From Arcuatula senhousia (lineage: Eukaryota; Mollusca; Bivalvia; Mytilida; Mytilidae): a DNA stretch of 64,000 bases. Each line of letters opens with the position of its first letter. The first letter of the stretch is position 1. Under the pieces are notes generated by a model. That model worked only from the letters and a program-made list of their open reading frames with translations. It was not told where the DNA came from and ran no database searches. This document shows, in pieces, positions 2,934 to 63,426 of the stretch. The position numbers and the translations under genes are program-made. The DNA lies in NCBI GenBank assembly GCA_963971305.1, contig OZ020314.1, positions 1,364,001 through 1,428,000 on the forward strand, given 5' to 3'.

Positions 2934-2977
2934 AGCTCACCTGGACCGAAGGTCCATAAGAGCTATTGCCATCACAG
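2934..2977 (+). mobile_element. Isolated 5' end of a hairpin-ended element
   Basis: AGCTCACCTGGACCGAAGG begins the 5' hairpin (2934-2964, GGACC/GGTCC stem), followed by ATTGCCATCAC. After that, where other copies continue with TTGGC, the 76-bp minisatellite begins. No matching 3' hairpin lies at the far end of the array. Confidence 0.85.
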
Positions 2978-7820: not shown

Positions 7821-7826
7821 TACAAG

Positions 7827-39489: not shown

Positions 39490-39602
39490 GAATATTGCTG
39501 TTATAATGGCAACAGATCATAAAAGGAAATTATCAGCAGAAAATGAGGATAGTCCTCCATCAAAACAGCCCAGAGTCCTCAGTGTTGGTACAAATACCTC
39601 AG
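39490..39602 (+). CDS. Exon 1 of the STAND gene (coding from 39506)
   Basis: The ATG at 39506 starts a 32-codon segment rich in Lys, Ser and Pro that ends at a good donor (CAG|GTCAGT, exon end 39602, phase 1). A pyrimidine-rich acceptor ending at 39489 (TTCATTGTCAG) suggests that 39490-39505 is untranslated sequence of a second exon, with a non-coding first exon further upstream that I could not locate. The leftover G joins AA of the next exon to make Glu33. The peptide has no hydrophobic stretch, so it is not a secretion signal; its two basic clusters (KRK and KQPR) suggest nuclear targeting. Confidence 0.72.
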
Positions 39603-42600
39603 GTCAGTAATACTATTTTATTTTATATTCTATGGAGTTTAGATCAAAATGTTAAACTGGCATATGATTTTTATGCCACATATGTACAAAAGGGTTATGT
39701 TCGACCGTCGATCCCAAATGTTGAGAGATGAGGCATCATTATGTCCATGATGTCTTCTGGACATATTTTTGTTTCAAGTTAAATTTACAAGTATTTAGTG
39801 TTAAGTATTGGTAAGAAATTTTATGGAACAGCCAGGGAATTCAGGATTTAAACCAATAAAACTGTTACAAAACTGTTATTTGGATTTTTGATTGGTTAAA
39901 AAACATGGCTGCCATGGTTGAAAAGAGAACATAGGGGTACAATCTGTTTTTATGCCCTGCCAACTTTGTCTGTTCGTCCATTCTTCCGTCCGTCACACTT
40001 TATTTTCTGCACTTTTTTCGACATTGACCATTTTAACCACCTTTCCTAATTGTATTGCAAACTGTAAAAGGTAGATAAAAAGTTTTAATTACAATATTGC
40101 CTAGCTAGTTTGATGGGAGACATATTGTTTTTGTCCTGTCCGTCCATCTGTTTGTCACAAAGTTTGTTAACACAACTCCTCTGAAACTACTGAACTGATT
40201 TCAACAAAACTTGGTATGTAGGAAGGAAACCATAAGGTGTCATGCATTTGATCAGGAAATTTTTATCCTCCAATTTTTGTGGGAGTAATGGCCCTTTGAA
40301 CTTAGAAATTTGGTGAAAATTCTCATTTATCATCTTGTCAGTACAACTCTGCTGGAACTACTGAACTGATTACAAGGAAACTTGATATGTAAGAAAGACA
40401 CCATATGTAGTTGTGCATATTACCAAGAAATTTTGATTGTCACTTTTTCGTGGGAGTTATGACCCTTTGAACTTAGTAATTTGCTTTAAGACTTCATTGA
40501 TCATCTTGTCAGCGCAACTCGGGTGGCATCTAAAACAACTGAACTGATTTCAAAGAAACTTGATATGTAGGAAATACAAATGACAACAAAGTTCCAGACA
40601 ATAAATTTTGCTACGCCTGACGCGCGTTTCGTCTATTCAAGACTCATCAGAGGCGCTCTACCAAAAATATTGAAAATGCCAAACACTATAGGATCATGAA
40701 GAGCATAGAACATTAAACCAAAAATATCAAACTGGGAAACCAAATTATTACTAAGATGATCAACCTATGTCTGGGTTAGGAAGAGCCTTAGGGTTTAGAC
40801 AACTTTGAAATTTAAAGGGTAATTTAAAGCTTTGATGTGTTCTCCAACACAAAAGTGTTGGTGCCGGAGCGGGCTAACCTCGGGGAATTAAAACTCCACC
40901 AGCAGTGCTAACCTTCACGTGTGTTCGAAATACAAATGACAACAAAGTTCCAGACAATAAAGTTAAAGACACCATATGTAGTTGTGCATATTACCAGGAA
41001 ATTTTTATCCTCAAATTTTTGTAGGAGTTATGGCCCTTTGAACTTAGAAATTTGCTGAAAATCCTCTTTAATAATCTAGTCAGGGCAACTCCTCTGAAAC
41101 TTTTTTCCTCCAATTTTTGTGGCAGTTTGGCCTTTTGAACTAAGAAATTTGCTGAAAATCCTCATTTAACATCTTGTCAGTACAACTCGTCTGAAACTAC
41201 TGAACCGATTTCAACTAAATTTGGTATGCAGGAAGGACACCACATGTAATTGTCACTGTGCATATTACCAGGAAATTTTGGTCCTCACATTTTTGTGGAG
41301 TTATTTAACCTTTGGAACTTAGAAAAAATTTGGGGAAGGGTGGAGACATCGTTATCAGTCAGGGGACTGACACATTCAAGTCAGAAATCATTTGACTTAA
41401 TAAAGTAAAAAAAGTTTAGAGTTGTAGCAGTCATTTTGTAGAAATGACACATTTAAGTCAGAAAAGTTCAGCTAGACCTGTTAAAGTCAAAAAGTTTTGA
41501 TCCAACATGTTCAAAGGAGTCCTTTAATTTTAATATGATCAGTATTCTCAATAATTTTCTGCTCTCACCTTTTAAAAATAATATTTTGTTTCCTTGGACA
41601 TTGTTGGTATTTATGACACTTGTTCATTTAAAAGTAAGTAATATTTTTCATATTAAATTATGGTGTCCGATTTTTTAGAGAGTAGTGATTATTTTTCTAT
41701 TCAATGTGCATGAAAATACTATTCATTCCAGGTGAAAATGTTTTGGCGCTTGACCTCATTGGCAGGGTGTGTGACTTTTCATGCATGTAAATTATATGAC
41801 TTCAAGAAGTCAGAAAATGTTTTATACATATTTATCATGTTTATATTACTGACTTGTATAAGTCGGATGAAAAAGGAAGACAACTCTTTTTTGCACTATA
41901 AATGACTTCTATAGTTCAGAAAAGAATTGACTTGCTAATGACTGGTTATTGCAGGCAAAAACAAATGTTTATTATTTAATTCATCTAATCACATGTTTTT
42001 CTTTATTTTCAGAACCAATAAAAGTTACAGTATCATCTGGGGAGACCACAGTCTTACAGGGAAGTTCACTGATCCTGACCTGTAACTTTAATGGAGAGTC
42101 TAAACCTTCAGCTGTTCTATGGACCAGATATAGAGGATCTGGGGAGGACATTCAGCTGACTCCAGACAAATATAGTGGTGGTACTGTAGATAATCCCTCT
42201 CTGACTGTCCATCATGTTGAAGCTGAAGACTCTGGAGTGTATGTCTGTAAATTAACATTTGATGGTGACCAAGTCTCCAGCAACTCACTGACAATCAATG
42301 TTGGTAGGTTTAAAACTTTGTATTAAGTTCATTGAAGTAGGTTTAAAAATGTGCTTTATATTAAGTACATTGAAACTTGCAGTATTCTTACAAAAGGCAG
42401 CAGTTTAAACTTTTTGTAAGGTTTTTGTGGAAATTACATGAAGCAGAGAGGCACCAATGGGTTATTTGAGTGTCAAAGGTCGGAAAGGGCAATGATAAAA
42501 CCAGTAAAGATAAACGAGAACAGCACAAAAAAAACCACAAACCATTTAAAAACACAAATCAACAATGTGAACTCAAGTCGTAACGAGAGTTTACTCAGGT

Positions 42601-45600
42601 GCTCCAGAAGAGTAAGCAGTTCTTGCTTGCTCTAGTACACCTGTCAAACTGCCAATGGTCACTTAGATGTGTCAAATCTGGTAAAGGAAGACAAGACAAA
42701 ATGTATGTCAAACCAGCATCTGCACTCATCTGAGAGATAGAATCCCATATTTGTTTATGAGCGCATGATGTCTCCCAAAAAATTTCTTGAATGAACCTAA
42801 CCTTGTGTTAGCAATTTTTGTGTCAGATGTGATGCTCTGCCAAGGAAACTGATGTAACTCTCGCAAGTCTGTAACCCAGATAATCCTGTCCTTTTTGTTA
42901 GCTCACCTGACCGGAAGGGTCATGTGAGCTATTGCCATCACTTGGCATGCATTCGTCTGTACGCAGTCTGTCGCCCATTAGCTTTTTTCAAACATCTTCT
43001 CTGAAACTGCTAAGCCAAATGCAGCCATACTTGATATGGTTGTTCCTTAGGGTATTGTGCAAAAAATTTGCATTGGGATTTTTGATATGTCAAAAAACAT
43101 GGCTGCTGTTACTAAAAATAGAACAGGGGGGTCAAAAACAGTTTTTTGCAATAACTCAAAAACGGTCAAAGATATCAAAATTCTGGCATGGGGGTAATAG
43201 TGATCAGCACCTCAAGATCTACCTGCCCAGGTGTTTTCAAAAAGATCCAACAACTGATGTAGGAGCCCTTTTTAGCTCACCTGACCCGAAGGGTCATGTG
43301 AGCTATTGTCATTACTTGGCGTCCTTCGTCCGTCCGTCGTCCGTCGTCCGTAAACTCTTTAAAACGTTAACTCCTCTGACACCATAAGTCCAATTACAAC
43401 CAAACTTGGTATAGTTGTTCATTAGCATTCGGTGCTTAGAACTGGTGTGGGGATTTTTGATTCGTCGTAAAACATGGCCGCCATGGCTAAAAATAGAACA
43501 GGGGTAAAATGCAGTTTTTTGCAAATAACTCAAAAACGGCTACAGATATCAAAATTCTGGCATAGGGTAAAAGTGATCAGCACCTCAAGATCTACCTACC
43601 CTGAAATTTTGAAGAAAATCCAATGACCCATGTAGGAGTTATTGCCCTTTTTGTGGATTTTTTGCAAAATTTGCACCTGTTTAGCTCAATATCTAGAAAA
43701 CCATACTAGATATTTGAGAAATTTAAATTGCATATTGTTAAGCACATCAAGATCTACAAAATATGTAACAGGGTCAATGTTGTAGAACCTTTCCTTTTAG
43801 GAGTTATTGCCCTTAGAACATCAAAATTTAGCATTTTAACAGCATTTCCTCATTACATTGAAAACGTTAACTCCTCTGACACTTTAAGTCCAAATGGAAC
43901 CAAACTTGGTATAGTTGTTTATTAACATTAGGTGTATAGAACTGATGTGGGGATTTTTGATTGGTCGTAAAACATGGCCGCTGTGGCTAAAAATAGAACA
44001 TAGAGGTAAATGGCAGTTTTTTGCAAATAACTCTAAAACGGTGACAGATTTCAAAATTTTTGATTGAGAACAAAAGTGATCAGCACCTCAAGATCTACCA
44101 GCTCTGAAATTTTGAAGAAAATCCGACAACCCATGTAGGAGTTATTGCCCTTTTTGTGGATTTTTTGCAAATTTTGCACCTGTTTAGCTCAATATCTTGA
44201 AAACTATACAAGATATTTGAGAAATTTAAATTGCATATTGTTAAGCGCATCAAGATCTACAAAATTTGTAGCAGGGTCAACGATGTAGGACCTTTTCTTT
44301 GAGGAGTTATTGCCCTTTGAACGTCAAAAGTGAGCATTTTAACTGCATTTCCTTATATTGAAAATGTTTACTCCTCTGACACTTTAAATCCAAATGGAAC
44401 CAAACTTGGTATTATTGTTTATTATTATTAGGTGTATAGAACTGTTGTGGGGATTTTTGATTGGTTGTAAAACATGGCCGCTGTGGCTAAAAATAGAACA
44501 TTAGGTTAAACTGCATTTTTTTGAAAATAACTCAAAAAGGGTGACAGATTTTTAGATTTTGATGAGAACAAAAGTGATCAGCACCTTAAGATCCACCATA
44601 TTGTCAGATAACCCTCTTATTAATCTTATGGCCCTTTCAACTTTAAATAGATTTTGCCTGATAACCTTTACTTCAGGCACATATGTCAGGTGAGCAATTC
44701 AGGCTCCTGGGAGCCTCTTGTTAGCTCACCCGGACCGAAGGTCCATGTGTGCTTATACCATCACTTGGCGTCCGTCGTTGTCGTCGTCTGTTTACAATTT
44801 TTCAAACGTTAAATTGTCTGACACCATAAGTCCAATTGCAACCAAGCTTGCTACAGTTGTTTAGTAGCATTATGTGTACAAAACTATCGTTCGGATTTTT
44901 GATTCGTAAAAAAACATGGCCGCCATGGCTAAAAATAGAACATAGGGGTAAATTGCAGTTTTTTGCTAATAACTCAAAAACCGTACCAGATATCAAAATT
45001 CTGGCATTTGGTAAAAGTAATCAGCACCTCCAGATCTACCTGCCCAGAAATTTTCAAGAAGATCTAAAAATCTATGTAGGAGTTATTGCCCTTTTTCTGG
45101 ATTTTTTCCAAATTTTGCACTTATTTAGCCCTAATTCTTGAAAACTATACAAGATATTTTAAAAATTCAAATTGCATATGATTAAGCACACCAAGATCTA
45201 CATTTCATGTAATTAGGTCAAAGCTGTAGAACCATTTCTTTTAGGAGTTATGGCCCTTAAAGCTTCAAGATTTACCATTTTTCATTACTTTTCCCCTGAA
45301 TTTCAAAGATTAACTTGTCTGACACCATACATCCAACTTCAACCAAACTTGGCACAGTTGTTTAATAGCATAAATGCTACAATTCCATTCGTCAAAAATA
45401 TGGCCTCCATACCTTAAAATAGAACATAGTGATAAATTGCAGTTTTTTGCTAATTACTCAAAAATATATACAGATATCAAAATTCTGATGAAAGACAAAA
45501 GTGATAAGCAATCCAAGATCTACCTGCTCTGAAATTTTCAAGAAGATCCAACAGCTGACAAAGGAGTTATTGCCCTTTTTCTGGATTTTTTCAAAAATTT

Positions 45601-48600
45601 TCACTTATTTAGCCCTGTATCTTGAAAACTATACAAGATATTTCAAAACTTCAAATTGCATATGATTAAGCACACATCAAGATCTACATTTCATGTTATT
45701 AGGTCAAAGCTGTAGAACCATTTCGTTTTGGAGTTATGGCCCTTAAAGCGTCAAAATTTACCATTTTTAATTACTTTTCCCCTGAATTTCAAAGATTAAC
45801 TTGTCTGAAACCGTAAGACCAACTGCATCTTAACATGGCACACTGTTTGATAGCTTATATGCTACAATTCTATGGTTCAGATTTTTTATTCGTAAAAAAA
45901 CATGGCCGCCATGGCTATAAATAGAACATAGGGGGAAATTGCATTTTTTTGCTAATAACTCTAAAATGGTTTCAGATATCAAAATTGGGCAAGAATCAAA
46001 GTGATGAGCATATTAAGATCTACCTGTCCTGAAATTTCAGAAAAGATCTGACTGCTGATGTGGGAGTTATTGTTCTTTTTCCTAATTTTTGCCAAATTTG
46101 CACTTATTAATTAAGCTAGCCAAGATATTTCAGAAATTTAAATCGCATATGGTTAAGCACAATAATATCTACAAATATATGTATCTGTGTAGTTCAGGTG
46201 AGCGATTCAAGCTCTTGGGAGCCCCTTGTTTTGTATTTTTTCAAAGTTTTGCAGTTATTTAGCCCTATATCTTGAAAACTATACAAGATATTTCAAAAAT
46301 TCAAATTGCATATGATTAAGCACACATCAAGATCTACATTTCATGTTATTAGGTCAAAGCTGTAGAACCATTCCTTTCAGGAGTTATTGCCCTTAGAAAT
46401 TAAAAATTTACCATTTTTCATTACTTTTCCCTTAATTTCAAAGAATAACTTGTCTGATACCATAAGACCATCTGCATTTAAACTTGGCACACTTGTTTAA
46501 TAGCATATATGCTACAATTCTATTGTTCAGATTTTAGATTTGTCAAAAAACATGGCCGCCATGGCTAAAAATAGAACTTAGGGGTAAATTGTAGTTTTTT
46601 GCTAATTACTCAAAAATGGTTACAGATATCAACATTGTGCAAGAATCAAAAGTGATCAGCTTATTAAGATTTACCTGTCCCGAAATTTTGAAAAAGATCC
46701 AACTGCTGACGTGGGAGTTATTGCCCTTTTTGATTTTTTTTTCTCAAAATTTTGCACTTATTTAGCCCTTTATCTTGAAAACTATACAAGATATTTCAAA
46801 AAATGAAATTGCATATGGTTAAGCACAATAATTTTAACAAAATATATGTATCTGTGTAGTTCAGGTGAGCGATTCAGGCACCTGGGAGCCTTTTGTTGAT
46901 GTACATTTTGGAGTGACTAGAGGTTGTGAAATATAACAGCTGAATTATTCGGCTTAGGATTATATATTGATTAACATGTAAATAAATAGTTTTGATAAAT
47001 GAAAAGATTAAAATGTCTTGATTTGAATTTAATTTGAATAAAAACAGGTGACCTATTACGTGAGAGTAAATTATTTAATTTTGTTAATTTGTTACCTATA
47101 AACTTAATGTGTCCTTTCAACGTTTTTCAATTTAATACTTTTCAAAATTGTTATAGCATGAATCAAGTTGATGTTTAAAATGCTAGAAAAACTGATGGCT
47201 CTTTACAGAAATGCAAATTGAAGTTTTCAAAGAATCTGAAAATGAAAAACTGACAAAATAAAAATAAATGCTGAAAAAAATGGGAGTTGGTAGAACTTAA
47301 ATAGATAAGTTAAATAGACATATGCAGAAAGAAGACAAATTGAAACAAATAAACAATATTTAACATGTTAAAAAGATATATACTCCTTCATCTACAAGAT
47401 CATATCCATACCTGAAATAAAAATTATCATACAAGATTAAATGATGCACTGATCCATGTTGGCAACAAAACTATGTAATGTATGTTTATCTTTATATAAT
47501 GGGCACCTGTCTATACAGGGTATATTTGCCTTTCTTATAAACAGGTTTTACTGTAGTACTCAGGTCCATAGCTATTGTTGATTTGTCATGATATGGCTAA
47601 AAATTAAACAGGTACAGATATTATATATATAAATTCAAAAGTGAAATCATTTTTCCCTCTTTTATTTAAAGTTGTTATTTGTAGTTTTATATTTTATTGA
47701 CTTTAAAATGTTCTTATACTTTCATTTTAGATACAACAAGCGCCGTTCTTTCTGAAGAAACAAACTATTTACGGATATATCTTTTGTGTTTGAACATTGG
47801 CACAAATTCTGTCCGCCATTATTTTGATAGCCATGTGCCACCAGGTTCATTACATGGCCATCTAAGCACACATGAACACAACTTAAGATATACACAACCA
47901 ATGAAATGTAACAAGGACCAGCTTAACTTACTCTTCCCAGGTAAATACATTAAATCAAATGAATTTTAGATCAATTGAAGCCTCCTTATATCTAACATTT
48001 TTATATTCCCCGCAAACAAAATTTGGGGTTGATATATAGGAATTACTCTGTGTGTCTTTTTGTCCGTCCATCCATTCGTCCGTCCCTAGATTAATTTCCT
48101 TCACAGATTTCTCAGCAACTACATGACCCAGAGGTTTGATATTTTGCATATAGTTTTATCCTATAGTACCGTGTGGTGTATACCAATTTTATGCTCCTAG
48201 GTCTAAGACTCTATGTTTACCACATACTTAGGTGTTTACACATATACAATGGAAAAGATTACAGATATAGAAAACCTTTTTAGCTCACCTGACCCGAAGG
48301 GTCATGTGAGCTATTGCCATCACTTTGCGTCCGTCGTCCGTCCGTCGTCCGTCGTCCGTCGTCCGTTAGCTTTTTTCAAACATCTTCTTCTCTGAAACTG
48401 CTTGGCTAATTGCAGCCAAACTTGATATGGTTGTTCCTTAGGGTATTGTGCAAAAAGTTTGCGTTGGGATTTTTGATACGTCAAAAAACATGGCCGCTGT
48501 TACTAAAAATAGAACAGGGGGGTCAAATATAGTTTTTTGCAAATAACTCAAAAACGGTCACAGATATCAAAATTCTGGCATAGGGTAAAAGTGATCAGCA

Positions 48601-51600: not shown

Positions 51601-54600
51601 TTCAGGGTCAAAATTGTCAAATCAATCGTTTAAGAGTTATCCCCCTTTAACTGATTTTTCTATCAATTTAAACTGATTTTTAAAAATCTTCTTCTCTTAA
51701 ACCACTGGTGGGATTACTTTGAAACTTTGTACACTTGATCTTTAGGATGTCCTCTACCAAGTTTGTGAAATTTATGAACGTTGACAAACCAACATGGCCG
51801 CCGTTACTAAAAATAGAACAGGGGGGTCAGACCATAGTTTTTAGCTTATAGCCCAAAAAGTATAAGAGATAGAGAAAATCCGAAGCAATTTCCTTCATTA
51901 ATCAAAAGCTCTAGAAAACTCTCCATTGAGTCAAAGTTGTGGGACGACTCTTTATAGAAGTTATTTCCCCTTAATCATCAAAATTGACCATTTTCACAGT
52001 TTTTGGACTTTATCTTGAAAACTGTAAGTGTTAGAGGAAAAGTTAGCATTGCAAAATTGTTATGCTTATTGAGATCTACAAAAATGATTTCAGGGTCAAA
52101 ATTGTCAGATCAACCACTTAAGAGTTATCCCCCTTTAACTGATTTTTCTATCAATTTTAACTGATTTTTGAAAATCTTCTCTGAAACCACTGGTGGGATT
52201 TCTTTAAAACTTTGTACACTTGATCTTTAGGATGTCCTCTACCAAGTTTGTGAATTTTGTAAAAGTTGACAAACCAACATGGCCGCCGTTTCTAAAAATA
52301 AAACGGGGGGGGGTCAGACCATAGGTTTTAGCTTATAGCTCAAAAAGTATAAGAGATAGAGAAAATCCGAAGCAATTTCCTTCTTCAGCATCAAAAGCTC
52401 TACAAATCTCTCCATTGAGTCAAAGTTGTGGGACGACCCCTAATAGGAGTTTTTTCCCCTTAATCGTCAAAATTGACCATTTTCATAGTTTTAGGACTAA
52501 ATCTTAAAAGCCATAAGAGTTAGAGGAATAGTTAGCCTTTCAAAATTGTTCAGCTCATTAAGATCTACAAAATGATTTCATGGTCAAAATTGTCAGATCA
52601 ACCTTTTAAGTGTTTTCAATCAATTTTAACTTAATATGGTTTTTTTTCCAACTGGAAAGCCTTGTAACTTTGTATTCTTGGTCTTAAAAGTGTTTTCTAT
52701 CCTAACTAGTTTCTTTAATGTTACTTTCCAAATATATGTAGACCATGTTGCACACTAGGTAAGAGGCTCAGGTGAGCGATTCAGGCTCCTGGGAGCCTCT
52801 AGTTTGTGCTTAAAAATACATGTTAAGAGGCTTTACAAAAGTGTCCAATAGAAGGAAGGGATTCCCCCTTTTAGTTTTGGGCTCATGAAATGTAAAACTT
52901 TTAATTTCCAGATAACGAAAAAAAAAATGCTGGCTAAAATGATTAACTTCAGAAGCTTCACAACCCTCTCCCTTCAGTTTACTCGAGTCTAATAGACTTT
53001 CTACCTACATGACAAAATTGTCAACTAGCAAATCTTTTAAAGTTTCTGCTTTGCCAAATGAAGATTTACAATTTGAACACACACAGAGAAAATAGAAAGA
53101 TCCAATATCACATTATGTTTTGTAGCTATACCAATGTTGCCTGCGTCATCAACATTTGATTTCTCCCTTCTCTATAAGTTGACCAGAAATACATTAAATG
53201 TCCCCCAACCAGCTCGAGGTTGGGGATTCCCTCCACAGGCCAGTGATATATCAGAAGAAGATGATGTGGAGCGTATCAGAAAGTATAGGAATCTCCTAGC
53301 TCATATTGAGCATTGCAAAATAGAGCAGAGTGTCTTCAGTACCATGTGGACTGAGCTCAGCCAGGTTAGTAACTAGTACAAATCAAAGTGCTAAAGTGTT
53401 TAAAGGCAAGCAATATTTATAAGTACTATAGTAGATTTATTCTCTGTTAAAGTTTGTTCTTCAAATATTTGCAAAATAAATGGTGAGCGAAGTAGGGATG
53501 GTCAAATGCAGATGCTCTCAACTTAAATGAACACAATACAAATATGGAATCGAGTGAAACATCCCTTCGATTAAAATGGACTTGTCCTATTGATGTGTAT
53601 TGTTTATTAAATTGTATGAATGAACCCAACAGAATCCTTGCATTGGCCAATCAAATAAGAGAAATAACCAATGAAGTAATAGATGAATACATGAAGTATA
53701 TTCTATCTCCTCTAACTAAATAGTTTGTCAAGTAAAATGCAAAGGAATAAACAAAACTTGTGCTGGTCATATAAAATGCCAATAAAAATAGAGATTTATA
53801 AAAGTGTGTTTCATGTTAACAAATATTGAAAAGTAATATAGAAAATAAAGCTTTTTGCCAGACTGGATACAGGAAAATCACCCCGTCTAGACTGAAAAAA
53901 AAACGTGAAAATCTTCACTACTCTATAGACTACATAAGGCTTTGCTGCGCTTGCCCAAAAATTGAAGCATTCAAGGTGTCATCGCGTAGTCCGTGCACCA
54001 CCCTAGGGGGAAGCTAGGTTTAGCAGTGCAAAGACCCATGGGACAATGTGGGCGTGGCGTGGCATTCTAATATCAGACAAAACAACAAGTTATAACAATT
54101 TATATGACAAATTCAATATTAAAAACAATAACAAAAATACTTTAAAGTTGAAGATTTCACAAAGTCCAAAGTTTAGAATTTCACAATAAAATTTTATTCA
54201 AAGTCCAAATGAAATATTTAAAAGTCCAAAGAATAAAAGTTAGCACAGTTTCGAAAGTCCAATAAATTTGAGTTGAATGCTGCTTGGAGGGTTGGTCCAG
54301 TCTTGTTCATGTCCTGAAGTGGCGACTTGTTCAGTTTGATGCTCACTCTTTGTCAGCAGCCAGAACATCAGACTGTGACCGCTGCCCCGTATAGCATGTG
54401 TGGAATCCTCAAGGTGTCATGTGTATGAACTTACTGCTGTTTCTTTGATTGGGTCATAAATTTATATGATCATGATGATAGACTCAAAATAGCTCATTTT
54501 GAAATATTTACCCTAATTTACAAAGTTTCATAAAAGTTTGAAATTAATACTCAACTCAATGTCAAATTACAAGAAAAATCAATTAACAAAAATCTATTCT

Positions 54601-57600
54601 ATAAAACCCTAATTAGATAGAAGTATCAATTAATAAGTAATTTTACTCAAGCTTATTTTGACACTTAATATAATTAGTTTAACTAAGTAAAAATAAAATC
54701 TAAATAAAAATTTGATTTTTTTAAAATTCAGAAAAATAAAGAATAAATTACATAATAATATTTTAACACAAACTGTCCCTATTACAAAGGTATAAAAACC
54801 CTATGTGTTAAGCCTAAAACATTTAGCTCATAGTCAGACAGAATAAAAGAGATGTAAAAAAATTAGACGTGATGATCCTTAACAGTGCTGTGAATTGTGA
54901 AATTTTGATGTAATATAACTTATCACAATAGGGATTTTCCTAATGCATTTTGGTTATTTGTCCCTAACCATTTTTAAAAAGGGGTAAAATGGACAGATCT
55001 GTTGTTGAAAAAGTGTACAAATCATGTCAAAGGGCAATAAAATGTCATAAATTTGGGCAAAAAAAACCCCAAGACATCACTGGTTGAGTGATGATAACCA
55101 AGGTAGGTCTGTCTACGTCATAAGCGCAACTCCTCTTATAGTGCTTGATGGATTTTGATGAAACTTGATGTGATCGTTTTGCAAGAGTTTAGTGGAATAT
55201 GAGTTACTTGAAAATTATAATAGCTCTGCATCAGATATTTAAGAAAAGATGAATTAAATTAGGGTTATTGCATCCGTCACTTGATATCTGACCTTGACCT
55301 CATTTTACACTCGATGACTGACAATATTGATTTGTGTTCAGTCTTTTATGTTTAGTCTGTTTCTCAATGACTATGATAGAAGCAAAGAGGCACCAAGGTA
55401 TCAAAAGTCAACAAGAACAGCACCAGAAATTAACTGAACAGAAATCAACAAGTGAACTCAAGTCATAACTAGAGTGAACTCAGGTGCGCCGTAGGAGTAA
55501 GCAGTTCCTGTCTGCTATAGCATATCGTCGCTTTGCATATTCTCAATTCAGTGTGTCAAATCCAGTAAAGGCAGACCGAACAAAACTGCATGACAAACCA
55601 AGATCTGCACTTATCTGCGAGATAGAAATCAATCAAGAATCACTTTGGTTGGTCCATAGGAAAATGCGCTCAGTCAATTACCAAATGACCTTGATATTTC
55701 TTTACCTTTGAATCTCAAAAGCATATCTTTGAAAATCCTCAAATAATTCATGCATTTAGATTTGCAATATCTTCAACAGGCAATACAGAGATTGAGCAAA
55801 GGATCCTTAACTACTGAAGTAAACGATTTAGAACACAAAAGACTGGACCAAGATATCAGAAGTCAAATGGTGGAAGATATCCTACAATTTAGGAAAGATG
55901 TAAAAGATTTACAACAAGAGGTTGAAGACATAATAAAAATTCAGAAAGACCAACAAGCAAGAATAGAAAGTCTGGAGGCTCGGCCAGTTCCACAACACAT
56001 ACCAAAACACATCAGAGGTAAGAATTATTGGTCCATAGGAGTGATGACGATTTGTTGTAATGGGAAATTTACATGTTCTAATGTGTGCGAGTGAAATGTT
56101 TCATCTTCCTGGAAAACAGTTTTTTTTCTGGTATGAATATTGAATTTTAAATCAACGTCATTTTGCAAAAACCATAAAAGCCCTGTAGTTTAACATTATT
56201 GTATAAACTAGTTGCTTTTCTTGAGTTGATGTTTCTAATTGCAAGAAGCTAAGGTGTACCAAAGGTGTACCAAAGGTGCAATCAAATATTGTTGTTAACT
56301 CTAATTCTGAAAAACAAACTTGGTACACATAAAATCATCAGAAAAAAACAAACAACACACACAACTACAAAACTATAATCATCAACACAAACCAAAGACA
56401 CGATTTGGTTATAATATTTTGTGTACCCCTCTTCAAAGAAGAGGAGGATATTCTGTTTTACCTGTGTCTGTCTGTAGTTCTGTGATTCCATAGTTTTACC
56501 TGTGTCCGTCTGTAGTTATGTGATTCCATAGTTTTACCTGTGTCTGTCTGTAGTTCTGTGATTCCATAGATCTACCTGTGTCCGTCTGTAGTTCTGTGAT
56601 TCCATAGTTCTGCCTGTGTCTGTCTGTAGTTATGTGATTCCATAGTTTTATCTGTGTCCGTCTGTAGTTCTGTGATTCCATAGTTTTACCTGTGTCTGTC
56701 TGTAGTTCTGTGATTCCATAGTTTTACCTGTGTCTGTCTGTAGTTCTGTGATTCCATAGTTCTGCCTGTGTCTGTCTGTAGTTATGTGATTCCATAGTTT
56801 TACCTGTGTCTGTCTGTAGTTATGTGATTCCATAGTTTTACCTGTGTCTGTCTGTAGTTATGTGATTCCATAGTTTTACCTGTGTCCGTCTGTAGTTATG
56901 TGATTCCATAGTTTTACCTGTGTCCGTCTGTAGTTCTGTGATTCCATAGTTTTACCTGTGTCCATCTGTAGTTCAGTGATTCCATAGTTTTACCTGTGTC
57001 TGTCTGTAGTTCTGTGATTCCATAGTTTTACCTGTGTCTGTCTGTAGTTATGTGATTCCATAGTTTTACTTGTGTCCGTCTGTAGTCCGTCTGTAGTTCT
57101 GTGATTCCATAGTTTTACCTGTGTCTGTCTGTAGTTCTGTGATTCCATAGTTTTACCTGTGTCTGTCTGTAGTTATGTGATTCCATAGTTTTACCTGTGT
57201 CTGTCTGTAGTTATGTGATTCCATAGTTTTACCTGTGTCTGTCTGTAGTTCTGTGATTCCATAGTTTTACCTGTGTCCGTCTGTAGTTATGTGATTCCAT
57301 AGTTTTACCTGTGTCCGTCTGTAGTTCTGTGATTCCATAGTTTTACCTGTGTCTGTCTGTAGTTCTGTGATTCCATAGTTTTACCTGTGTCCATCTGTAG
57401 TTCTGTGACTCCATAGTTTTACCTGTGTCCATCTGTAGTTATGTGATTCCATAGTTTTACCTGTGTCCGTCTGTAGTTCTGTGATTCCATAGTTTTACCT
57501 GTGTCTGTCTGTAGTTCTGTGATTCCATAGTGTCCATCTGTAGTTATGTGATTCCATAGTTTTACCTGTGTCTGTCTCTAGTTCTGTGATTCCATAGTTT

Positions 57601-60600
57601 TACCTGTGTCCGTCTGTAGTTCTGTGATTCCATAGTTTTACCTGTGTCTGTCTGTAGTTCTGTGATTCCATAGTTTTACCTGTGTCTGTCTGTAGTTATG
57701 TGATTCCATAGTTTTACCTGTGTCTGTCTGTAGTAATGTGATTCCATAGTTTTACCTGTGTCTGTCTGTAGTTCTGTGATTCCATAGTTTTCCCTGTGTC
57801 TGTCTGTAGTTCTGTGATTCCATAGTGTCCATCTGTAGTTATGTGATTCCATAGTTTTACCTGTGTCTGTCTCTAGTTCTGTGATTCCATAGTTTTACCT
57901 GTGTCCGTCTGTAGTTCTGCGATTCCATAGTTTTACCTGTGTCCGTCTGTAGTTCTGTGATTCCATAGTTTTACCTGTGTCTGTCTGTAGTTCTGTGATT
58001 CCATAGTTTTACCTGTGTCTGTCTGTAGTTCTGTGATTCCATAGTTTTACCTGTGTCTGTCTGTAGTTCTGTGATTCCATAGTTTTACCTGTGTCTGTCT
58101 GTAGTTCTGTGATTCCATAGTTTTACCTGTGTCTGTCTGTAGTTCTGTGATTCCATAGTTTTACCTGTGTCTGTCTGTAGTTCTGTGATTCCATAGTTTT
58201 ACCTGTGTCTGTCTGTAGTTCTGTGATTCCATAGTTCTGCCTGTGTCTGTCTGTAGTTATGTGATTCCATAGTTTTACCTGTGTCTGTCTGTAGTTATGT
58301 GATTCCATAGTTTTACCTGTGTCTGTCTGTAGTTCTGTGATTCCATAGTTTTACCTGTGTCCGTCTGTAGTTATGTGATTCCATAGTTTTACCTGTGTCC
58401 GTCTGTAATTCTGTGATTCCATAGTTTTACCTGTGTCCGTCTGTAGTTCTGTGATTCCATAGTTTTACCTGTGTCCGTCTGTAGTTCTGTGATTCCATAG
58501 TTTTACCTGTGTCTGTCTGTAGTTATATGATTCCATAGTTTTACCTGTGTCTGTCTGTAGTTCTGTGATTCCATAGTTTTACCTGTGTCTGTCTGTAGTT
58601 CTGTGATTCCATAGTTTTACCTGTGTCTGTCTGTAGTTATGTGATTCCATAGTTTTACCTGTGTCCGTCTGTAGTTATGTGATTCCATAGTTTTACCTGT
58701 GTCCGTCTGTAGTTCTGTGATTCCCTAGTTTTACCTGTGTCCGTCTGTAGTTCTGTGATTCCATAGTTTTACCTGTGTCCGTCTGTAGTTCTGTGATTCC
58801 ATAGTTTTACCTGTGTCCGTCTGTAGTTCTGTGATTCCATAGTTTTACCTGTGTCTGTCTGTAGTTCTGTGATTCCATAGTTTTACCTGTGTCTGTCTGT
58901 AGTTATGTGATTCCATAGTTTTACCTGTGTCTGTCTGTAGTTCTGTGATTCCATAGTTTTACCTGTGTCTGTCTGTAGTTCTGTGATTCCATAGTTTTAC
59001 CTGTGTCTGTCTGTTGTTCTGTGATTCCATAGTTTTACCTGTGTCCATCTGTAGTTATGTGATTCCATAGTTTTACCTGTGTCTGTCTCTAGTTCTGTGA
59101 TTCCATAGTTTTACCTGTGTCCGTCTGTAGTTCTGTGATTCCATAGTTTTACCTGTGTCTGTCTGTAGTTCTGTGATTCCATAGTTTTACCTGTGTCTGT
59201 CTGTAGTTATGTGATTCCATAGTTTTACCTGCTTTCTTACCCCCTTTTTGTTCACTCATAACTCATCTAATTTTTGTCACAAACTTGATATTGACATGAT
59301 GCATAGTGGGATATCTTTCTAGATCAATCAGATATTTACTTTCAGTTAAATAAAAACTTATTTTTTCCCTAAAGTTTAATTCCTTCCCATTTTTTAGCTC
59401 ACCTGGCCAAAGGCCATGTGAGCTTTTGCCATCACTTGCCATCCGTCGTTGTCGTCGTCCGTCGTTGTCGTCGTTTGTCGTCGTCGTTAACTTTACTTCA
59501 AACTTCTTCTCTTCTGAAACGGCTACACAGATTCAAACCAAATTTGGTCTGGTAGTACTTTAGGGTATCCCCCACAGAACTGATGTGGGGATTTTTGATT
59601 CGTTTAAATACATGGCCGCCGTTGCTAAAAATAGACCAGGGGGGTCAGACTACTGTTTTTGGCTTGTAAATCAAAAAGTACAAGAGATAGATGAAATCTG
59701 ATGCCACCTTACTGCTTCAGCATCAAAAGTTCTACTAACGTCTCCATTTGGTCGAAGTTGTCAGATGACCCCTTATAAGGGTTACGGCCCCTGAAATAAT
59801 GTTTTTTCATGTTTTGGCCTATGGAATGAAACCTATTGCAGATAGAAAGAAGCTGTTGCTTGCTTAAATGTGCAGCTAATTAAGCTGTACAAAAGTCTCC
59901 ATAGGGTCGAAGTTGTCAGATGACCCCTTATAGGGGTTACGGCCTCTAAAATGATGATTTTTCATGTTTTTGGCTTATAAAAAGAAAACTAGAGCAGATA
60001 GAGAAAAAGCTGTTGCTTGCTTAACATATACATTGCTATGATAAAGTCATTTATAAAATCACTATGTTTGATACAAGTTAATTAAGAATAGTGTTAAACG
60101 ATAACAAACACAATTAATAAGTTAATTAAGAGCTTTAAGTTATATGCTTGCTTAAATGTTCAGTTCATTTAGCTCTACAAAAGTCTCAATAGGATCGAAG
60201 TTGTCAGATGACCCTTTATAGGGGTTATGGCCTCTGAAATAACCTTTTTCATGTTTTTGGCCTAGAGAATGAATGTTCAGTTTATATAGCTCTACAAAAG
60301 TCTTAATAGGATCGAAGTTGTCAGATGACCCTTAATAGGGGTTACGGCCCCTAAAATAAACTTTTTCATGTTTTTGGCGTTTAGAATGAAAACTATAGCA
60401 GATAGAGAAAAGCCGTTGCTTGCTTAAATGTTCAGCGCATAAAGCTCTACAAAAGTGTCCATAGGGTCGAAGTTGTGAGATGACCCTTTTTAAGGGTAAG
60501 GGCCCCTAAAATAACGTTTTTTCATGTTTTTGGCCTATAGAATGAAAACTATAGTAGATAAAGAAAAACTGTTGCTCTACAAAATATAGGGTTGACATCA

Positions 60601-63426
60601 AGACCAGGTGAGCGATTTAGGCTCCTGGGAGCCTCCTGTTGTATGATTATAACTCTGCAACTATTACTCCTAGTTGGCATATTTGTCACAAGCTTGGTAT
60701 GTATACCATGTATAGTGAGATACATGTATGATTTAGGATCCATTACACATCTACTGCTTGTTTACCAAAAATGAAAAAAAATCTGTCACACTTTTCATTC
60801 ACTTAGTGTAGTATTCAGCAATTTATACGCCTAGGTTGCTGATATTTGGACAACTGAAAATCCATGTAAATTCATAATATAGTGGAAGTAAAAAAGAATA
60901 ATTCTTTCTGATGGTGCCAGCAGGCGAGATATACTTTAGTGTTAACTCTTGTTTAGATCTATCAGACATCTACTTCCTGTTAACCATTAACGGAATTTTT
61001 CTGTCGAACTATTGTTAAAATTCCATCACACTTTTCATACATAAACAGCAAAATATTTGCAAATGAATTATGATATGGTGTTGTTGTTTACATTGTCTGT
61101 TAACTTTGGTGTTCCTATAATAATCATATTTCTAGCCAGGTGATTGCTATCAACTTTATATTTAACTCATGGCATAGTTGTGGGGCAGCAAGCATTTATA
61201 TATTTTGCATTATTTTTCTCAGATGGCCAGATCACTCAGCTAGATGCATGGGCAGCAGAAGATTTGGTGTTCTATAGTGAAACAGCAGCTGTAAAAGAAG
61301 TTACAGACAAACTCAACCAACATCAGATTGTGACAATAGTAGGAGGTCCTGGAGCTGGGAAGACAAGTATTGCAAAACATATAGCACTGGAATACCAGAA
61401 ACGGAAATTTGAAGTAGTACCCATTTGTCAACCAGAGGACATTATTTATTTTGGTGACTATTCTGTGTCTCAGGTTTTTGTACTTGATGATGTGTTAGGT
61501 GTTTTTGCTCTTGATGTGTCATTATATAACAAATTGAATAACACAAAAACCAGTATTTTGTCAGCAATAGGTAAACAATCAAAACTAATTTGTACTAGCC
61601 GAAGATTGGTTTATAATCAAGCTAATGACATGGGGTGTTTTGTTTTAGAAAATTTTGTTAACATAGATAATGAGTTAATTCAGTTATCTGACTCTGACAA
61701 AATTAACATATTTCATAACCACTGTAAAAACAAAGATGTTAAGGAACAATTTGATAATCTATCATTTGAAAATTGTAATTTTATGTTTCCGTTGTTATGT
61801 AGAATTTTTGCAGCATCAGATAAGCATTTAAAGAATCCCAAAGCATTCTTTGATCACCCTGTGGATTGTGTTAAAGATGAACTCGACAAAATGGCGGAAA
61901 TGAAAAGAACACAGTATGCAGTTTTGGTCCTCTGTATGATGAACTCCAAGAAGATATCAAGCATGAACAAACCTTTGACATCCATCAACAAGGATTTAAT
62001 AAATGACATCTTTGACTCATGCAGTGATTGTGCAAACCCAACCAACAGTCAGATAAACCAAGCACTACAACATTTATCTGGAACATACCTCACTATATCT
62101 GGTGACCACTACACATTTATCCACGACTCCATTTATGAAATTGTTGCCTACCATTTTGGAAAACAACATGTAGAACTCATGATAGAATACATGTCCAGCA
62201 CCTTTGTTCGGAACAAACTTGTTATATCAGGAGCAGAATTAGTTGATCAGCTCAGTATTGAAGTCACAGAAGACATGTATCGAATTTTAGCTGACCGACT
62301 GTTGAAAGATATAAAAGATGGCAAGCTGTATGATGTATTTACCAACCCTACTCTGTCACATAGACAATTTGTTGATGTCTTCATGGATGTTCTAAAGAAC
62401 ACGTTGTCATATCAACATTTCAAAGAAATGTTCCTTACAGTAATGGAAGGTGATTTAGACCACATAACACAACAAAGTAAAAAGATGGCAGTAAACAAGG
62501 AAGAGGGGACTCGGAGTTATGATGAAAAAAATCGTCAGAGGCTGTTGTTAGGGTTAGCATCGATGTATGATGATGATGATGATGATGATGACTATAATTA
62601 TTATTCCATACTTATAATCAGCTTCATTATATACTATGGCCACAGTCACCTCTTACAGTGTATCATAGATTATGTCCTCAGTGAACATGATACATTGACA
62701 TCTGTTATTGGATCAGACCTATCAGAACAATCACGGTTACTTACCTTGGCAGTCTACAGTGGTAATGTAGATGTTTTACAGGTTTTATTGAAGTATACAG
62801 AAAGTAATGCTGTAAATGTATCAGCAGAGGGTGATGGTATGAATCCTTACTATAATGATCATAGATATCATACACCACTAACAGCAGCGTGTTATGTGGG
62901 TAACATGTCTGCTGTTAAGATTCTTTTAGAATTGAATGGAAAAGTTAACCCTGAAAATGAACCTTACTACAGACCTTTGGTAGAAGCAGCAAAGAAAGGA
63001 CACATTGATATTGTAATACACCTGGTAAACCATGGTGGGGATGTGAACCTCTCTACTGGTTATAAGGTATCACCTCTGTACACTGCAGCCAGGGGAGGAC
63101 ACCTTGATGTTGTGTCTTTCTTGGTTGAACATGGTGGGGATGTGAACCTCTGTACTGAGGATAATGAATCACCTCTGTATGCTGCAGCCAGGGGAGGACA
63201 CCTAGATATTGTTTCTTGCTTGGTTGAACATGGTGGGGATGTGAACCTCTGTACTAAGGATAATAGATCACCTCTGTGGGTTGCTTCATTGAGAGGACGT
63301 TATGACATAGTTAAATTCTTGCTTAAGAATGGAGCAAAAGTAAATCACGGGAACTCTCTAATTTATGTAGCATTTGGACATGAAGACATTGTAGAACTTT
63401 TACAAAATTACCAATCTGTCAATTGA
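39506..63426 (+). CDS. Ig-HEPN-coiled coil-STAND NTPase-ankyrin protein (six-exon gene, complete)
   Basis: Exons are 39506-39602, 42013-42303, 47731-47940, 53126-53364, 55780-56017 and 61223-63426. Donor phases are 1, 1, 1, 0 and 1 and each next acceptor matches; the sum is 3279 bases, 1092 residues plus stop. Residue map: 1-32 basic N terminus with KRKLSAENEDSPPSKQPR, resembling a bipartite nuclear signal; 33-129 Ig domain; about 135-279 HEPN of the DZIP3-like kind; 280-358 coiled coil; 359-about 800 STAND NTPase with Walker A GGPGAGKTS (399-407), Walker B VFVLDD (443-448) and CTSR (482-485); Asp run 808-815; ankyrin repeats from about 820 to the end. Known of the families: STAND proteins are NTP-driven switches that oligomerise on ligand binding, ankyrins bind ligands, many HEPN domains are RNases. 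Inferred: an intracellular NLR-like receptor. No signal peptide or convincing membrane anchor is seen, so the Ig domain should be cytosolic or nuclear. No transcript supports the joins here. Confidence 0.85.
39990..41340 (+). repeat. Degenerate ~180-bp modular repeat
   Basis: Successive modules share the phrases CTCCTCTGAAACTACTGAAC, AACTTGGTATGTAGGAAGG, CACCATATGTAGTTGTGCAT and GGGAGTTATGGCCCTTTGAA. About five imperfect modules are visible. The style resembles the internal modules of the hairpin-ended family elsewhere in the window, but the words differ, so it is probably a separate family. Its terminal structures were not found. Confidence 0.6.
40571..40961 (+). mobile_element. Short element with 35-bp terminal direct repeats
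   Basis: A 35-base sequence starting GAAATACAAATGACAACAAA occurs at 40571-40605 and, identically, at 40927-40961. It flanks a 321-base core with a CGCGCGTTTCGTCT segment that I associate with a very common mussel repeat. The surrounding modular repeat resumes cleanly on both sides (left flank TTGATATGTAG, right flank AAAGACACCATATG), so the unit looks inserted. The direct repeats are too long for a usual target-site duplication and are more likely part of the element. Class unknown. Confidence 0.6.
42013..42303 (+). CDS. Exon 2 of the STAND gene: single immunoglobulin domain
   Basis: A 291-base exon with acceptor TTATTTTCAG and donor TTG|GTAGGT, phase 1 at both ends. It encodes residues 33-129, exactly one Ig fold: B-strand Cys56 (LILTCNF), C-strand Trp69 (AVLWTRY) and the F-strand motif DSGVYVC with Cys111. 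The spacing fits a V- or I-set domain. Because the exon is symmetrical, skipping it would leave the frame intact and yield an Ig-less HEPN-STAND protein. Ig exons of phase 1-1 are classical exon-shuffling units. Unusual here is their place in a protein without a signal peptide. Confidence 0.88.
42425..42730 (+). repeat. Interspersed repeat (GCACCAATGGG / AAGGGCAATGA family)
   Basis: Begins AGAGAGGCACCAATGGG, continues through TGTCAAAGGTCGGAAAGG and later AGTAAGCAGTTCTTGCTTGC. Related copies occur at about 38846-39360 and 55383-55690 on the plus strand and 20750-21060 on the minus strand. It has no coding potential. The class is not evident from the ends. Confidence 0.7.
42898..43271 (+). mobile_element. 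Hairpin-ended element, 5' part only
   Basis: Starts with the 5' hairpin (42900-42930; GACC-GGAA-GGGTC type stem) and the CCATCACTTGGC segment, then internal-module text with AAACATGGCTGCTG. It is cut by the start of another copy at 43272, which suggests nesting or a copy joined within it. Confidence 0.75.
43272..44722 (+). mobile_element. Hairpin-ended element, full length
   Basis: The 5' hairpin is at 43274-43304 (GACCC/GGGTC stem with GAA loop, outer CTCAC/GTGAG pairs). The 3' hairpin GGCTCCTGGGAGCC is at 44702-44715, followed by TCTTGTT. In between lie about three internal modules of roughly 490 bases, each with an AAACATGGCCGC segment and AGTTATTGCCC. There is no open frame of note. The layout (5' structured end, 3' hairpin a few bases before CTTGT) recalls Helitron-type elements, but no terminal TC or transposase is seen, so the class stays open. 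Confidence 0.8.
44723..46230 (+). mobile_element. Hairpin-ended element joined head to tail to the previous one
   Basis: The 5' hairpin (44723-44753, GGACC/GGTCC) starts directly after the CTTGTT terminus of the preceding copy, with no bases between them. The 3' end is a weaker hairpin (AGCTCTTGGGAGC, 46210-46222) followed by CCCTTGTT. The interior again consists of diverged modules. Confidence 0.78.
46231..46897 (+). mobile_element. Hairpin-ended element, 5'-truncated copy
   Basis: Follows the previous terminus directly but begins in the middle of an internal module (TTTTTCAAAGTTTTGCAGTT). It ends with the hairpin GGCACCTGGGAGCC (46877-46890) and TTTTGTT. It could also be a continuation of the previous copy with an internal end-like hairpin. 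Confidence 0.7.
47731..47940 (+). CDS. Exon 3 of the STAND gene: N-terminal half of DZIP3-like HEPN
   Basis: A 210-base exon (residues 130-199) with acceptor TTTCATTTTAG and donor CCCAG|GTAAAT, phase 1 at both ends. The peptide contains ETNYLRIYLLCLNIGTNSVR, then HYFDSHVPPGSLHGHL and NKDQLNLLFP. From memory of the family, this is the first half of the HEPN domain found in DZIP3-like proteins of bivalves and cnidarians: a leading E-x-x-N-x-x-R helix, the F-D-x-x-x-P-P segment and a closing L-L-F-P. The helices carrying the R-x4-H motif lie in the next exon. Confidence 0.85.
48280..51352 (+). mobile_element. Hairpin-ended element, long form with tandem ~501-bp modules
   Basis: The 5' hairpin is at 48282-48312 (GACCC/GGGTC), followed by a short CGTCCGTCGTCCGTCGTCCG tract. 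The 3' hairpin lies at about 51332-51345 and is followed by TCTTGTT. The interior carries a nested MITE (48659-49340) and repeated modules. The phrase GCTTAATAGCATAATTGCTA starts at 49621 and 50122, with a near-identical copy at 50623, a spacing of 501 bases each time, and the flanking text is almost identical. Short frames in the modules (from 49610 and 50111) are by-products of the repetition. Confidence 0.78.
48659..49340. mobile_element. MITE-like element nested in a hairpin-ended element
   Basis: Perfect 12-base terminal inverted repeats CAGTGTTCCAGC / GCTGGAACACTG bound 682 bases with no coding capacity. It interrupts the module phrase GTAGGAGTTATTGCCC. The left flank ends GGAGTT and the right flank begins GAGTTATT, so GAGTT (5 bases) is duplicated. 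Superfamily not assigned. Confidence 0.85.
51353..52804 (+). mobile_element. Hairpin-ended element lacking the 5' hairpin
   Basis: Begins directly after the preceding CTTGTT terminus with AGCTTATAGCTCAAAAAG and holds about three modules of a subfamily marked by AGTATAAGAGATAGAGAAAA. The 3' hairpin GGCTCCTGGGAGCC is at 52784-52797, followed by TCTAGTT. The CTAGT at 52799-52803 equals the classical Helitron 3' terminus, while sister copies have CTTGT. Confidence 0.75.
53126..53364 (+). CDS. Exon 4 of the STAND gene: C-terminal half of HEPN with R-x4-H
   Basis: A 239-base exon (residues 200-279), acceptor TGTTTTGTAG, donor CCAG|GTTAGT, entering in phase 1 and leaving in phase 0. It encodes FDFSLLYKLTRN, an ARGWGFPP turn, then the acidic DISEEDDVERIRKYRNLLAH segment. 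R254-N255-x-x-x-H259 is the HEPN R-x4-H signature that forms the RNase site in active members of the superfamily. The segment ends W-T-E-L-S-Q, matching the usual end of this domain. Both catalytic residues are present, so the domain could be active; that is inference. Confidence 0.88.
53365..55779 (+). other. Intron 4 of the STAND gene
   Basis: Mostly AT-rich sequence. A GC-richer block at about 53930-54420 has two copies of TCAAGGTGTCAT (near 53973 and 54411) and may be an insertion of unknown type. 55105-55370 is a fragment of the family also seen at 22880-23560. 55383-55690 is a copy of the AAGGGCAA repeat family. No further exon was recognised. Confidence 0.6.
55105..55690 (+). repeat. 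Two adjoining interspersed repeat fragments
   Basis: 55105-55370 carries GAAAATTATAATAGCT, TCTGATATTT-like text and CTTGACCTCATTTTACAC, as at 22880-23560. 55383-55690 carries AGAGGCACCAAGG, GAACTCAAGTCATAACTAGA and GAGTAAGCAGTTCCTGTCTG, as at 42425-42730. Confidence 0.6.
55780..56017 (+). CDS. Exon 5 of the STAND gene: coiled-coil linker
   Basis: A 238-base exon (residues 280-358), acceptor CTTCAACAG, donor AGAG|GTAAGA, entering in phase 0 and leaving in phase 1. The product is charged and helical, with heptad-like hydrophobic spacing through DILQFRKDVKDLQQEVEDII and on to RIESLEARP, followed by a Pro/His-rich hinge (PVPQHIPKHIR). It joins HEPN to the NTPase and could mediate oligomerisation. 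Similar coiled segments follow the HEPN domain in related bivalve proteins, as I recall them. Confidence 0.82.
56456..59231 (+). repeat. 38-bp minisatellite, about 73 units
   Basis: The unit reads TAGTTTTACCTGTGTC-(C/T)-GTCTGTAGTT-(C/A)-TGTGATTCCA. Two binary sites (CCG/CTG and TTC/TTA) alternate along the array, and rare variants (TCTCTAG, a shortened unit near 57530 and 57826, an extra GTCTGTAGTCC near 57082) mark blocks that recur. Because 38 is not a multiple of three, short minus-strand frames cycle through a Q-T-D-T-G / N-Y-R motif; they are not genes. Confidence 0.95.
59394..60640 (+). mobile_element. Hairpin-ended element, full length
   Basis: The 5' hairpin is at 59396-59424, with a GGCC-AAA-GGCC stem and outer CTCAC/GTGAG. 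A GTCGTTGTCGTCGTCCG tract follows, then modules with ACCCCTTATAGGGGTTACGG and GTCGAAGTTGTCAGATGA. The 3' hairpin GGCTCCTGGGAGCC is at 60620-60633, followed by TCCTGTT. The interior modules belong to the subtype also seen at 13535-14545. Confidence 0.8.
61223..63426 (+). CDS. Exon 6 of the STAND gene: NTPase and ankyrin repeats, terminal exon
   Basis: A 2204-base terminal exon. The acceptor TATTTTTCTCAG ends at 61222, and AT completes GAT (Asp359) with the G left by exon 5. An in-frame ATG at 61144 lies before the acceptor and is not the likely start. NTPase motifs: GGPGAGKTS, VFVLDD, CTSRR, then a helical part ending YTFIHDSIYEIVAYHFG, typical of the novel STAND NTPases of bivalves. A (GAT)n run gives eight Asp residues at 62569-62592. 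Ankyrin repeats follow: one degenerate copy (IISFIIYYGHSHLLQCIIDY), one around LAVYSGNVDVLQVLLKY, then HTPLTAACYVGNMSAVKILL, four regular copies, and a partial copy ending at the TGA (63424-63426). Three copies share 99-base near-identical DNA. Confidence 0.92.

Follow-up and report, generated by a model that had tools for sequence, protein, structure and literature searches.

A stretch of 64,000 nucleotides from the bivalve Arcuatula senhousia (C12:1364001-1428000, hereafter the window) carries, one after another on the plus strand, exons for an Ig domain, a HEPN domain, a STAND NTPase and ankyrin repeats, which raises the question of whether they form one gene and, if so, what an Ig domain would do at the front of such a protein.

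Gene model and domain order

Six plus-strand exons (39506-63426) could be joined into one frame of 1092 residues followed by a stop codon. GT/AG borders were found in all six and the phases of the five junctions (1, 1, 1, 0 and 1) matched, as the initial annotation had claimed. A Pfam scan of the joined protein also returned the claimed order of Ig, HEPN, STAND NTPase and ankyrins (Ig_3 at residues 36-112, 4e-10; HEPN_DZIP3 at residues 167-307, 1.7e-28; nSTAND3 at residues 376-527, 7.9e-29; Ank_2 in the C-terminal part, 1e-55), with a hydrophilic tail ahead of the Ig and a coil between HEPN and nSTAND3. Exon 1 (39506-39602) supplies the start codon and a hydrophilic, basic tail of 32 amino acids (MATDHKRKLS...SVGTNTS) that ends in phase 1, and exon 2 (42013-42303; 291 nt, phase 1-1) encodes the Ig domain (Ig_3/V-set/I-set). 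The first and second halves of the HEPN_DZIP3 region are encoded by exon 3 (47731-47940) and exon 4 (53126-53364), the latter including the Rx4H motif of HEPN (R-N-L-L-A-H, residues 254-259; 53287-53304). Exon 5 (55780-56017) contains the end of HEPN and a predicted coil, in which the best 28-residue stretches were 0.88 hydrophobic at a/d positions by a simple heptad count, and exon 6 (61223-63426) encodes the nSTAND3 NTPase, a helical region and the ankyrin repeats up to the stop codon. Within exon 6, the nSTAND3 core (residues 376-527; 61273-61728) was recognized by both Pfam and PADLOC (PDC-S73) and contains Walker A (GGPGAGKT; 61342-61365) and Walker B (FVLDD; 61477-61491), and the ankyrin-repeat region was cut for searches at residues 861-1092 (62728-63423).

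Regarding the individual domains, the profile scores were well above the cut-offs for HEPN_DZIP3 (PF18738: 99.6 bits versus a curated cut-off of 27) and nSTAND3 (PF20720: 100.8 versus 27.2 bits), with Walker A and B intact, and above it for Ig_3 (40.5 versus 30 bits), with the two cysteines and the tryptophan of the window copy all present (in exon-product numbering, Cys24, Cys79 and Trp37). A single-sequence structure model of the Ig reached a pLDDT of only 37, so the evidence for an Ig fold comes from profile matches; among solved structures, the best sequence matches to the Ig were adhesion molecules. The structure model of the STAND-ankyrin exon had a mean pLDDT of 69, nearly all of the 50 Foldseek matches listed for it were ankyrin or designed-repeat chains, and the profile search results were likewise dominated by ankyrin proteins. 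When three exon products were submitted to PADLOC, only the STAND-ankyrin exon matched, best to PDC-M72A over the ankyrin part and second to PDC-S73, a candidate defence family, over the NTPase (4.4e-19). NACHT (PF05729) was not among the best 25 of 44 Pfam families of the joined protein, where unlisted families score worse than 0.02, and neither were an LRR family, ankyrins occupying the C-terminus instead, nor DED and TRADD-N. A strict NACHT-type NLR label was rejected, since the NTPase is nSTAND3 rather than NACHT and the repeats are ankyrins rather than LRRs. Judged from sequence, the gene model is real, the gene family is well supported and the combination of domains is unusual.

The window also contains three tandem arrays: one of 38 bp with ~73 copies in the intron ahead of the STAND exon (window 56455-59231), one of 76 bp with ~64 copies and 96% matches (window 2974-7821), and a 51-bp minisatellite with ~215 copies (window 24850-36015). 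Since the minisatellite unit is a multiple of three, it gives rise to minus-strand ORFs of 1000-1668 residues, which are unlikely to be genes; one of them has a Pfam LbH_EIF2B match (4e-25) that is probably repeat-driven.

Linkage of the Ig exon to HEPN across the genome

In the whole genome (1.04 Gb), 150 HEPN_DZIP3 matches out of 266 candidates were scored, which agrees with the expansion of DZIP3-like HEPN genes mentioned in the initial annotation and with bivalve and oyster expansions described in the text of PMC9646362 and PMC3710099. The Rx4H motif, intact in the window copy, was present in all 49 aligned HEPN copies, and HEPN is predicted to act as an RNase. Along the array, HEPN exon 4 falls into three intermixed clades, whose identity to the window is ~85-100%, 62-65% and 51-53%. 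In the gene of the 1310001 block, the first half is of the window type (94%) and the second half of type B (64%), a mixture that suggests exon exchange.

The Ig product had 62 close copies genome-wide, the window's included (E <= 5.4e-31), before E fell to 1.9e-12 at the next full match; 48 of the copies lie in the array (C12 0.23-3.21 Mb), and the other 14 make up a second group. For this count 150 of 631 candidates were scored; all weaker matches (E of 1.9e-12 or worse) were left out, as was a single incomplete copy from the array (C12:3067452, 49 residues), which contains a stop. A HEPN first-half exon followed on the same strand within 9.0 kb downstream in 57 of the 62 copies, at a distance of 343-620 bp in 18 of the 57, supporting the earlier assignment of the Ig exon to the HEPN-STAND gene. 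This same-strand linkage led us to reject the idea that the Ig exons are separate adjacent genes, joined in appearance only, which we regard as highly improbable. The introns of the window are indeed large (5.4 kb from the Ig to the HEPN exon) and five of the 62 copies have no first-half match downstream, but in three of these five a second half of HEPN lies farther downstream, at 9.9-12.2 kb, and the diverged second group keeps the order of Ig and HEPN at identities to the window of 61-70% and, for the HEPN first half, mostly 40-43%.

Counted from the HEPN side, 34 of 35 first-half exons of the window type (at least 91% identity, the window included) were accompanied by Ig exons (one in 24, two in 9, three in 1 and none in 1), as were 9 of the 26 further first-half matches that share these contigs, and the remaining 49 of all 110 first-half matches lie on contigs holding none of the 62 Ig copies. 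By HEPN second half, the 47 array loci divided into 13 with no Ig, 22 with one, 10 with two and 2 with three, a tally that uses nearest-HEPN assignment and includes one spurious Ig (54 kb off, locus 364515), for which reason the first-half linkage counts are preferred. When sorted by exon-4 type, an Ig was assigned to 27/28 loci of type A, 6/13 of type B and 1/6 of type C. The borders of the Ig exon were read in 51 of the 62 copies (48/48 in the array and 3/14 in the second group), and 50 of the 51 were uninterrupted, all 50 being open and ending at a G|GT donor. The acceptor was CAG or TAG in all 50 rows whose alignment starts at residue 1; in the remaining row it starts at residue 6 owing to an indel. 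Because the exon is of phase 1-1 throughout its size range (291-300 nt), gain or loss of an Ig copy leaves the reading frame intact.

The second Ig-HEPN group lies at C12:7.79-8.42 Mb, at 14.28 Mb of the same contig, and on C1536 and C1038. Identity to the window is mostly higher in its Ig than in its HEPN first half, opposite to what the array shows; the locus at 8.42 Mb has 70% for Ig and 91% for HEPN. At the far end of the array (C12:3.15-3.21 Mb), loci 3178884 (-) and 3209990 (+) are identical in Ig spacing and in aligned products, which points either to a recent duplication in inverted orientation or to an error of assembly. Near-identical loci such as these may be assembly duplicates; identical sequences were collapsed to one only for the pN/pS sets and the residue counts of unique copies given below.

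The exon products of the window were also used to search six blocks in its vicinity (20 stretches), and the exons present always stood in one order. Ig was found in five of the six (one, three, one, two and one copies), the tail in three, both HEPN halves in all, the coil in four, STAND in five, and ankyrins in four plus a 15-residue match in a fifth. Identity to the window was lowest in the ankyrins (56-71%, the 15-residue match left out), suggesting that these are the likelier sensor; the values were 74-87% for STAND, 72-96% for the coil, 82-92% for Ig, 94-97% for the HEPN first half (one copy 52%) and 78-91% for the second half (two copies 64-65%). The 1428001 block looks damaged, with one stop in HEPN and one in STAND, the 1501001 block has a frame break in STAND, and no STAND was found in the 10 kb read past HEPN in the 1724001 block. 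Two further upstream stretches contain one Ig each, one of which is interrupted.

Variation of the Ig domain and location of the protein

Among 45 unique Ig copies, Cys24 was replaced by Ser in 5 and Cys79 by Phe in 1, and Trp37 was kept in all 45. Occasional loss of a cysteine with the tryptophan kept would be expected if the disulfide of the Ig were dispensable; however, most copies keep both cysteines, as secreted Igs do, which counts against an intracellular reading. The pN/pS ratio was 0.66 (interval 0.47-0.97) for the Ig versus 0.24 (0.13-0.41) for HEPN exon 4 (codon bootstrap 0.001, the paralogues being non-independent). The Ig set consisted of 45 unique sequences out of 47 complete copies with at least 80% identity, identical sequences being counted once and three second-group copies and the interrupted one being left out, and the HEPN set of 25 unique out of 29 exon-4 copies with at least 84% identity, from a total of 49. 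In the first nine Ig copies, 49 nonsynonymous and 22 synonymous changes were counted, versus 32 and 44 in HEPN and coil together (Fisher p = 0.0015); with one Ig per gene the Ig counts were 31 and 15 (Fisher p = 0.009). STAND was intermediate, at 0.30 and 0.39 in two pairwise runs that left out copies below 75% and below 80% identity, respectively. Relaxed constraint could be an alternative cause of the raised Ig ratio.

The variation of the Ig was concentrated in residues 1-14, 25-34 and 40-52, which correspond to the first strand, the BC loop and the C-C' region (strand names assigned by eye, not from a structure), where mean entropy was 0.53-0.66 versus 0.19 in the FG loop. Antibody-like hypervariability was rejected in view of this nearly constant FG loop, whose conservation speaks against antigen-like binding. 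In genes with several Igs, a C-C' loop longer by one residue was present in 8 of 11 distal and none of 11 proximal Igs (Fisher p = 0.001; labels set by hand, with one near-identical gene pair counted twice), and the longer loop was also seen in one single-Ig gene of the array and in all three second-group copies read.

Counting the window's own, the genome has 15 copies of the tail exon, and an Ig exon lies 1.2-4.0 kb downstream of every one. In eight genes, the 9 to 15 kb ahead of the first Ig were scanned for candidate first exons with 43 or more coding bases and a good donor, so that shorter or weaker-donor exons would be missed. Only the hydrophilic tail was common to at least three of the eight genes (4/8); no hydrophobic candidate was shared to that extent within the range scanned, and unshared candidates with hydrophobic stretches do occur. 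The initial annotation's description of the protein as free of a signal peptide is upheld as far as shared first exons are concerned, but weakened by the unshared candidates. The other four genes have no recognizable tail within ~15 kb, and one of them has a head rich in S, T and P. Such alternative heads were seen as ORFs in the C12_1032001 block (285 residues; C12:1043567) and in the Ig-less C12_1428001 block (494 residues; C12:1442740), both with 51-53% S+T+P, a first Met in the context M-G/S-K-S-Q-S-K and a tail-like end, SVGTDTS; the MGKSQS form presumably resembles a myristoylation signal.

In the four tail-bearing genes, a conserved AG lies 16 nt before the ATG as a possible splice acceptor, and the frame is open across these 16 nt, so the transcript may include a further 5' exon. 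Two of these genes, neither of them in the window, have a tail frame that stays open farther upstream, across a moderately hydrophobic extension (peak 1.8 over 10 residues), as far as an earlier ATG. These features favour a reading in which an unseen 5' exon provides a signal peptide and the Ig faces outside, the protein being a membrane receptor with its NTPase inside, like AjNLRC4, whose surface Ig offers a precedent (PMC8699970, text); the retained cysteines, the adhesion molecules among the structural matches and the unshared hydrophobic candidates point the same way. We nevertheless consider it improbable. No clear membrane helix was found in the six-exon model by a simple scan, in which the best 19-residue hydropathy window reached 1.54, and the short Ig-to-HEPN gaps in 18 cases leave little room for a membrane exon. 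An A at -3 and a G at +4 mark a favourable start context; the ATG of exon 1 has both and opens a basic, hydrophilic exon. In addition, no hydrophobic first exon is shared by three or more genes, and the homology common to all four tail-bearing genes ends ~124 bp upstream of the ATG, short pieces that match several places being disregarded. A cytosolic or nuclear location is therefore likely for the protein as modelled.

Another alternative is that the Ig exon is a mostly skipped cassette and the working protein tail-HEPN-STAND-ankyrin, as in Ig-less relatives from Mytilus and Saccostrea. The phase of the Ig exon allows exon 1 to join exon 3 in frame, those relatives begin at HEPN, and 13 of the 47 array HEPN loci have no close Ig assigned, but the exon is uninterrupted in nearly all copies read and has been duplicated, and its pN/pS falls short of 1, albeit with an interval that comes close to it. 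On balance, predominant skipping appears possible but doubtful.

Proposed function and comparison with known systems

Taking the observed exon order, gene family, Ig copy number, conserved motifs and selection differences as a basis, we favour, with a probability of about 0.6, the reading that the gene belongs to a large tandem family of intracellular, NLR-like receptors with an RNase HEPN and a grafted, copy-variable Ig. The mechanism that we propose is modelled on RNase L and STAND receptors. The ankyrin repeats would sense a target and, once bound to it, free the nSTAND3 NTPase, which would exchange nucleotide and oligomerize; oligomerization would pair the HEPN domains, and the paired domains would cut RNA via the Rx4H site, leading to an RNase-L-like shut-down of infected cells. 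An immune role of this kind is our inference, as are the origin and the job of the Ig: the phase 1-1 exon was probably grafted ahead of HEPN from a gene for a cell-surface-type Ig and then copied up to three times, and the Ig would most likely serve as a cytosolic binding or assembly module, in contact with other Igs or with a partner, rather than as the main pathogen sensor. An RNase L analogy is drawn in PMC3710099 for another animal HEPN family, CXorf38, and bacterial HEPN-STAND proteins are noted in the same text.

If the preferred reading is true, three known ingredients, Ig grafting, a HEPN RNase and a STAND switch, come together in one tandem family, with the number of Ig exons as a simple natural dial. 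The role of an Ig domain inside the cell, as part of an immune receptor, would then become testable, and a single array would display how phase 1-1 exons remodel the fronts of receptors. A more far-reaching proposal, which we put forward tentatively and think rather unlikely, is a germline-diversified intracellular repertoire, in which zero to three tandem, exchangeable Ig exons and alternative heads are placed on a conserved HEPN-STAND core, and Ig number and C-C' loop type set the partner or the valency of assembly; an invertebrate would then be using Ig domains inside the cell in RNA-cutting immunity.

Among known systems, the DZIP3/hRUL138-like HEPN-NACHT proteins of Pinctada fucata (PMC9646362) and Cnidaria (PMC8260672; see also PMC3710099) likewise combine HEPN_DZIP3 with a STAND-class NTPase and have undergone tandem or lineage-specific expansion, but they have NACHT in place of nSTAND3, and their texts mention no Ig head. 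According to the same texts, Rx4-6H is found in 194 of 202 P. fucata proteins (PMC9646362), and the partners of HEPN include ankyrin, CARD, NACHT, DEATH and LRR, with an expansion in oyster (PMC3710099). The literature on HEPN-NACHT expansions and on Ig-headed and Ig-NACHT receptors also includes PMC9334734 and PMC7773633. The Mytilus edulis and Saccostrea cucullata proteins share the HEPN_DZIP3-nSTAND3-ankyrin core, with an identity of 27-29% in alignments that cover 81-82% of residues 30-600; they begin at HEPN and showed no Ig at E <= 0.01 in a Pfam scan. Protein searches, which depended on shared words and do not imply absence elsewhere, gave 34 different proteins, of which 5 list HEPN_DZIP3 and none lists Ig, and no description of an Ig-HEPN-nSTAND3-ankyrin protein was found in the text (without figures or supplements) of the open-licence literature.

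Ig domains have been described in three other kinds of immune-type protein. The HEPN-Ig-DED-TRADD-N protein of Crassostrea gigas (Kaur et al. 2021, PMC8195603) is an expanded bivalve protein of immune type that also pairs a HEPN RNase with Ig; in the text its order is HEPN, Ig repeats and DED-TRADD-N, followed by WD40 propellers or by a cGAS-like domain and TPRs, and nSTAND3-ankyrin is not stated there. The L4 type of lophotrochozoan RIG-I-like receptors (PMC8998645) gained N-terminal Igs on an intracellular receptor by exon gain, with four Igs in oyster CgiRLR6; as described in the text, it differs in being a helicase receptor without HEPN or STAND. Sea cucumber AjNLRC4 (PMC8699970) and AjNLR-new (PMC13133943) have Ig and a STAND-class (NACHT) NTPase in one protein, but with transmembrane segments and with no HEPN or ankyrins in the text, and their Ig lies outside in AjNLRC4 and is reported inside in AjNLR-new. 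The initial annotation was right in calling the Ig-headed form unusual as a combination, but its novelty is smaller than implied, as Ig-headed and Ig-bearing receptors are already in print: Ig add-ons on intracellular receptors are known, and what is new is the combination of Ig, HEPN, nSTAND3 and ankyrins.
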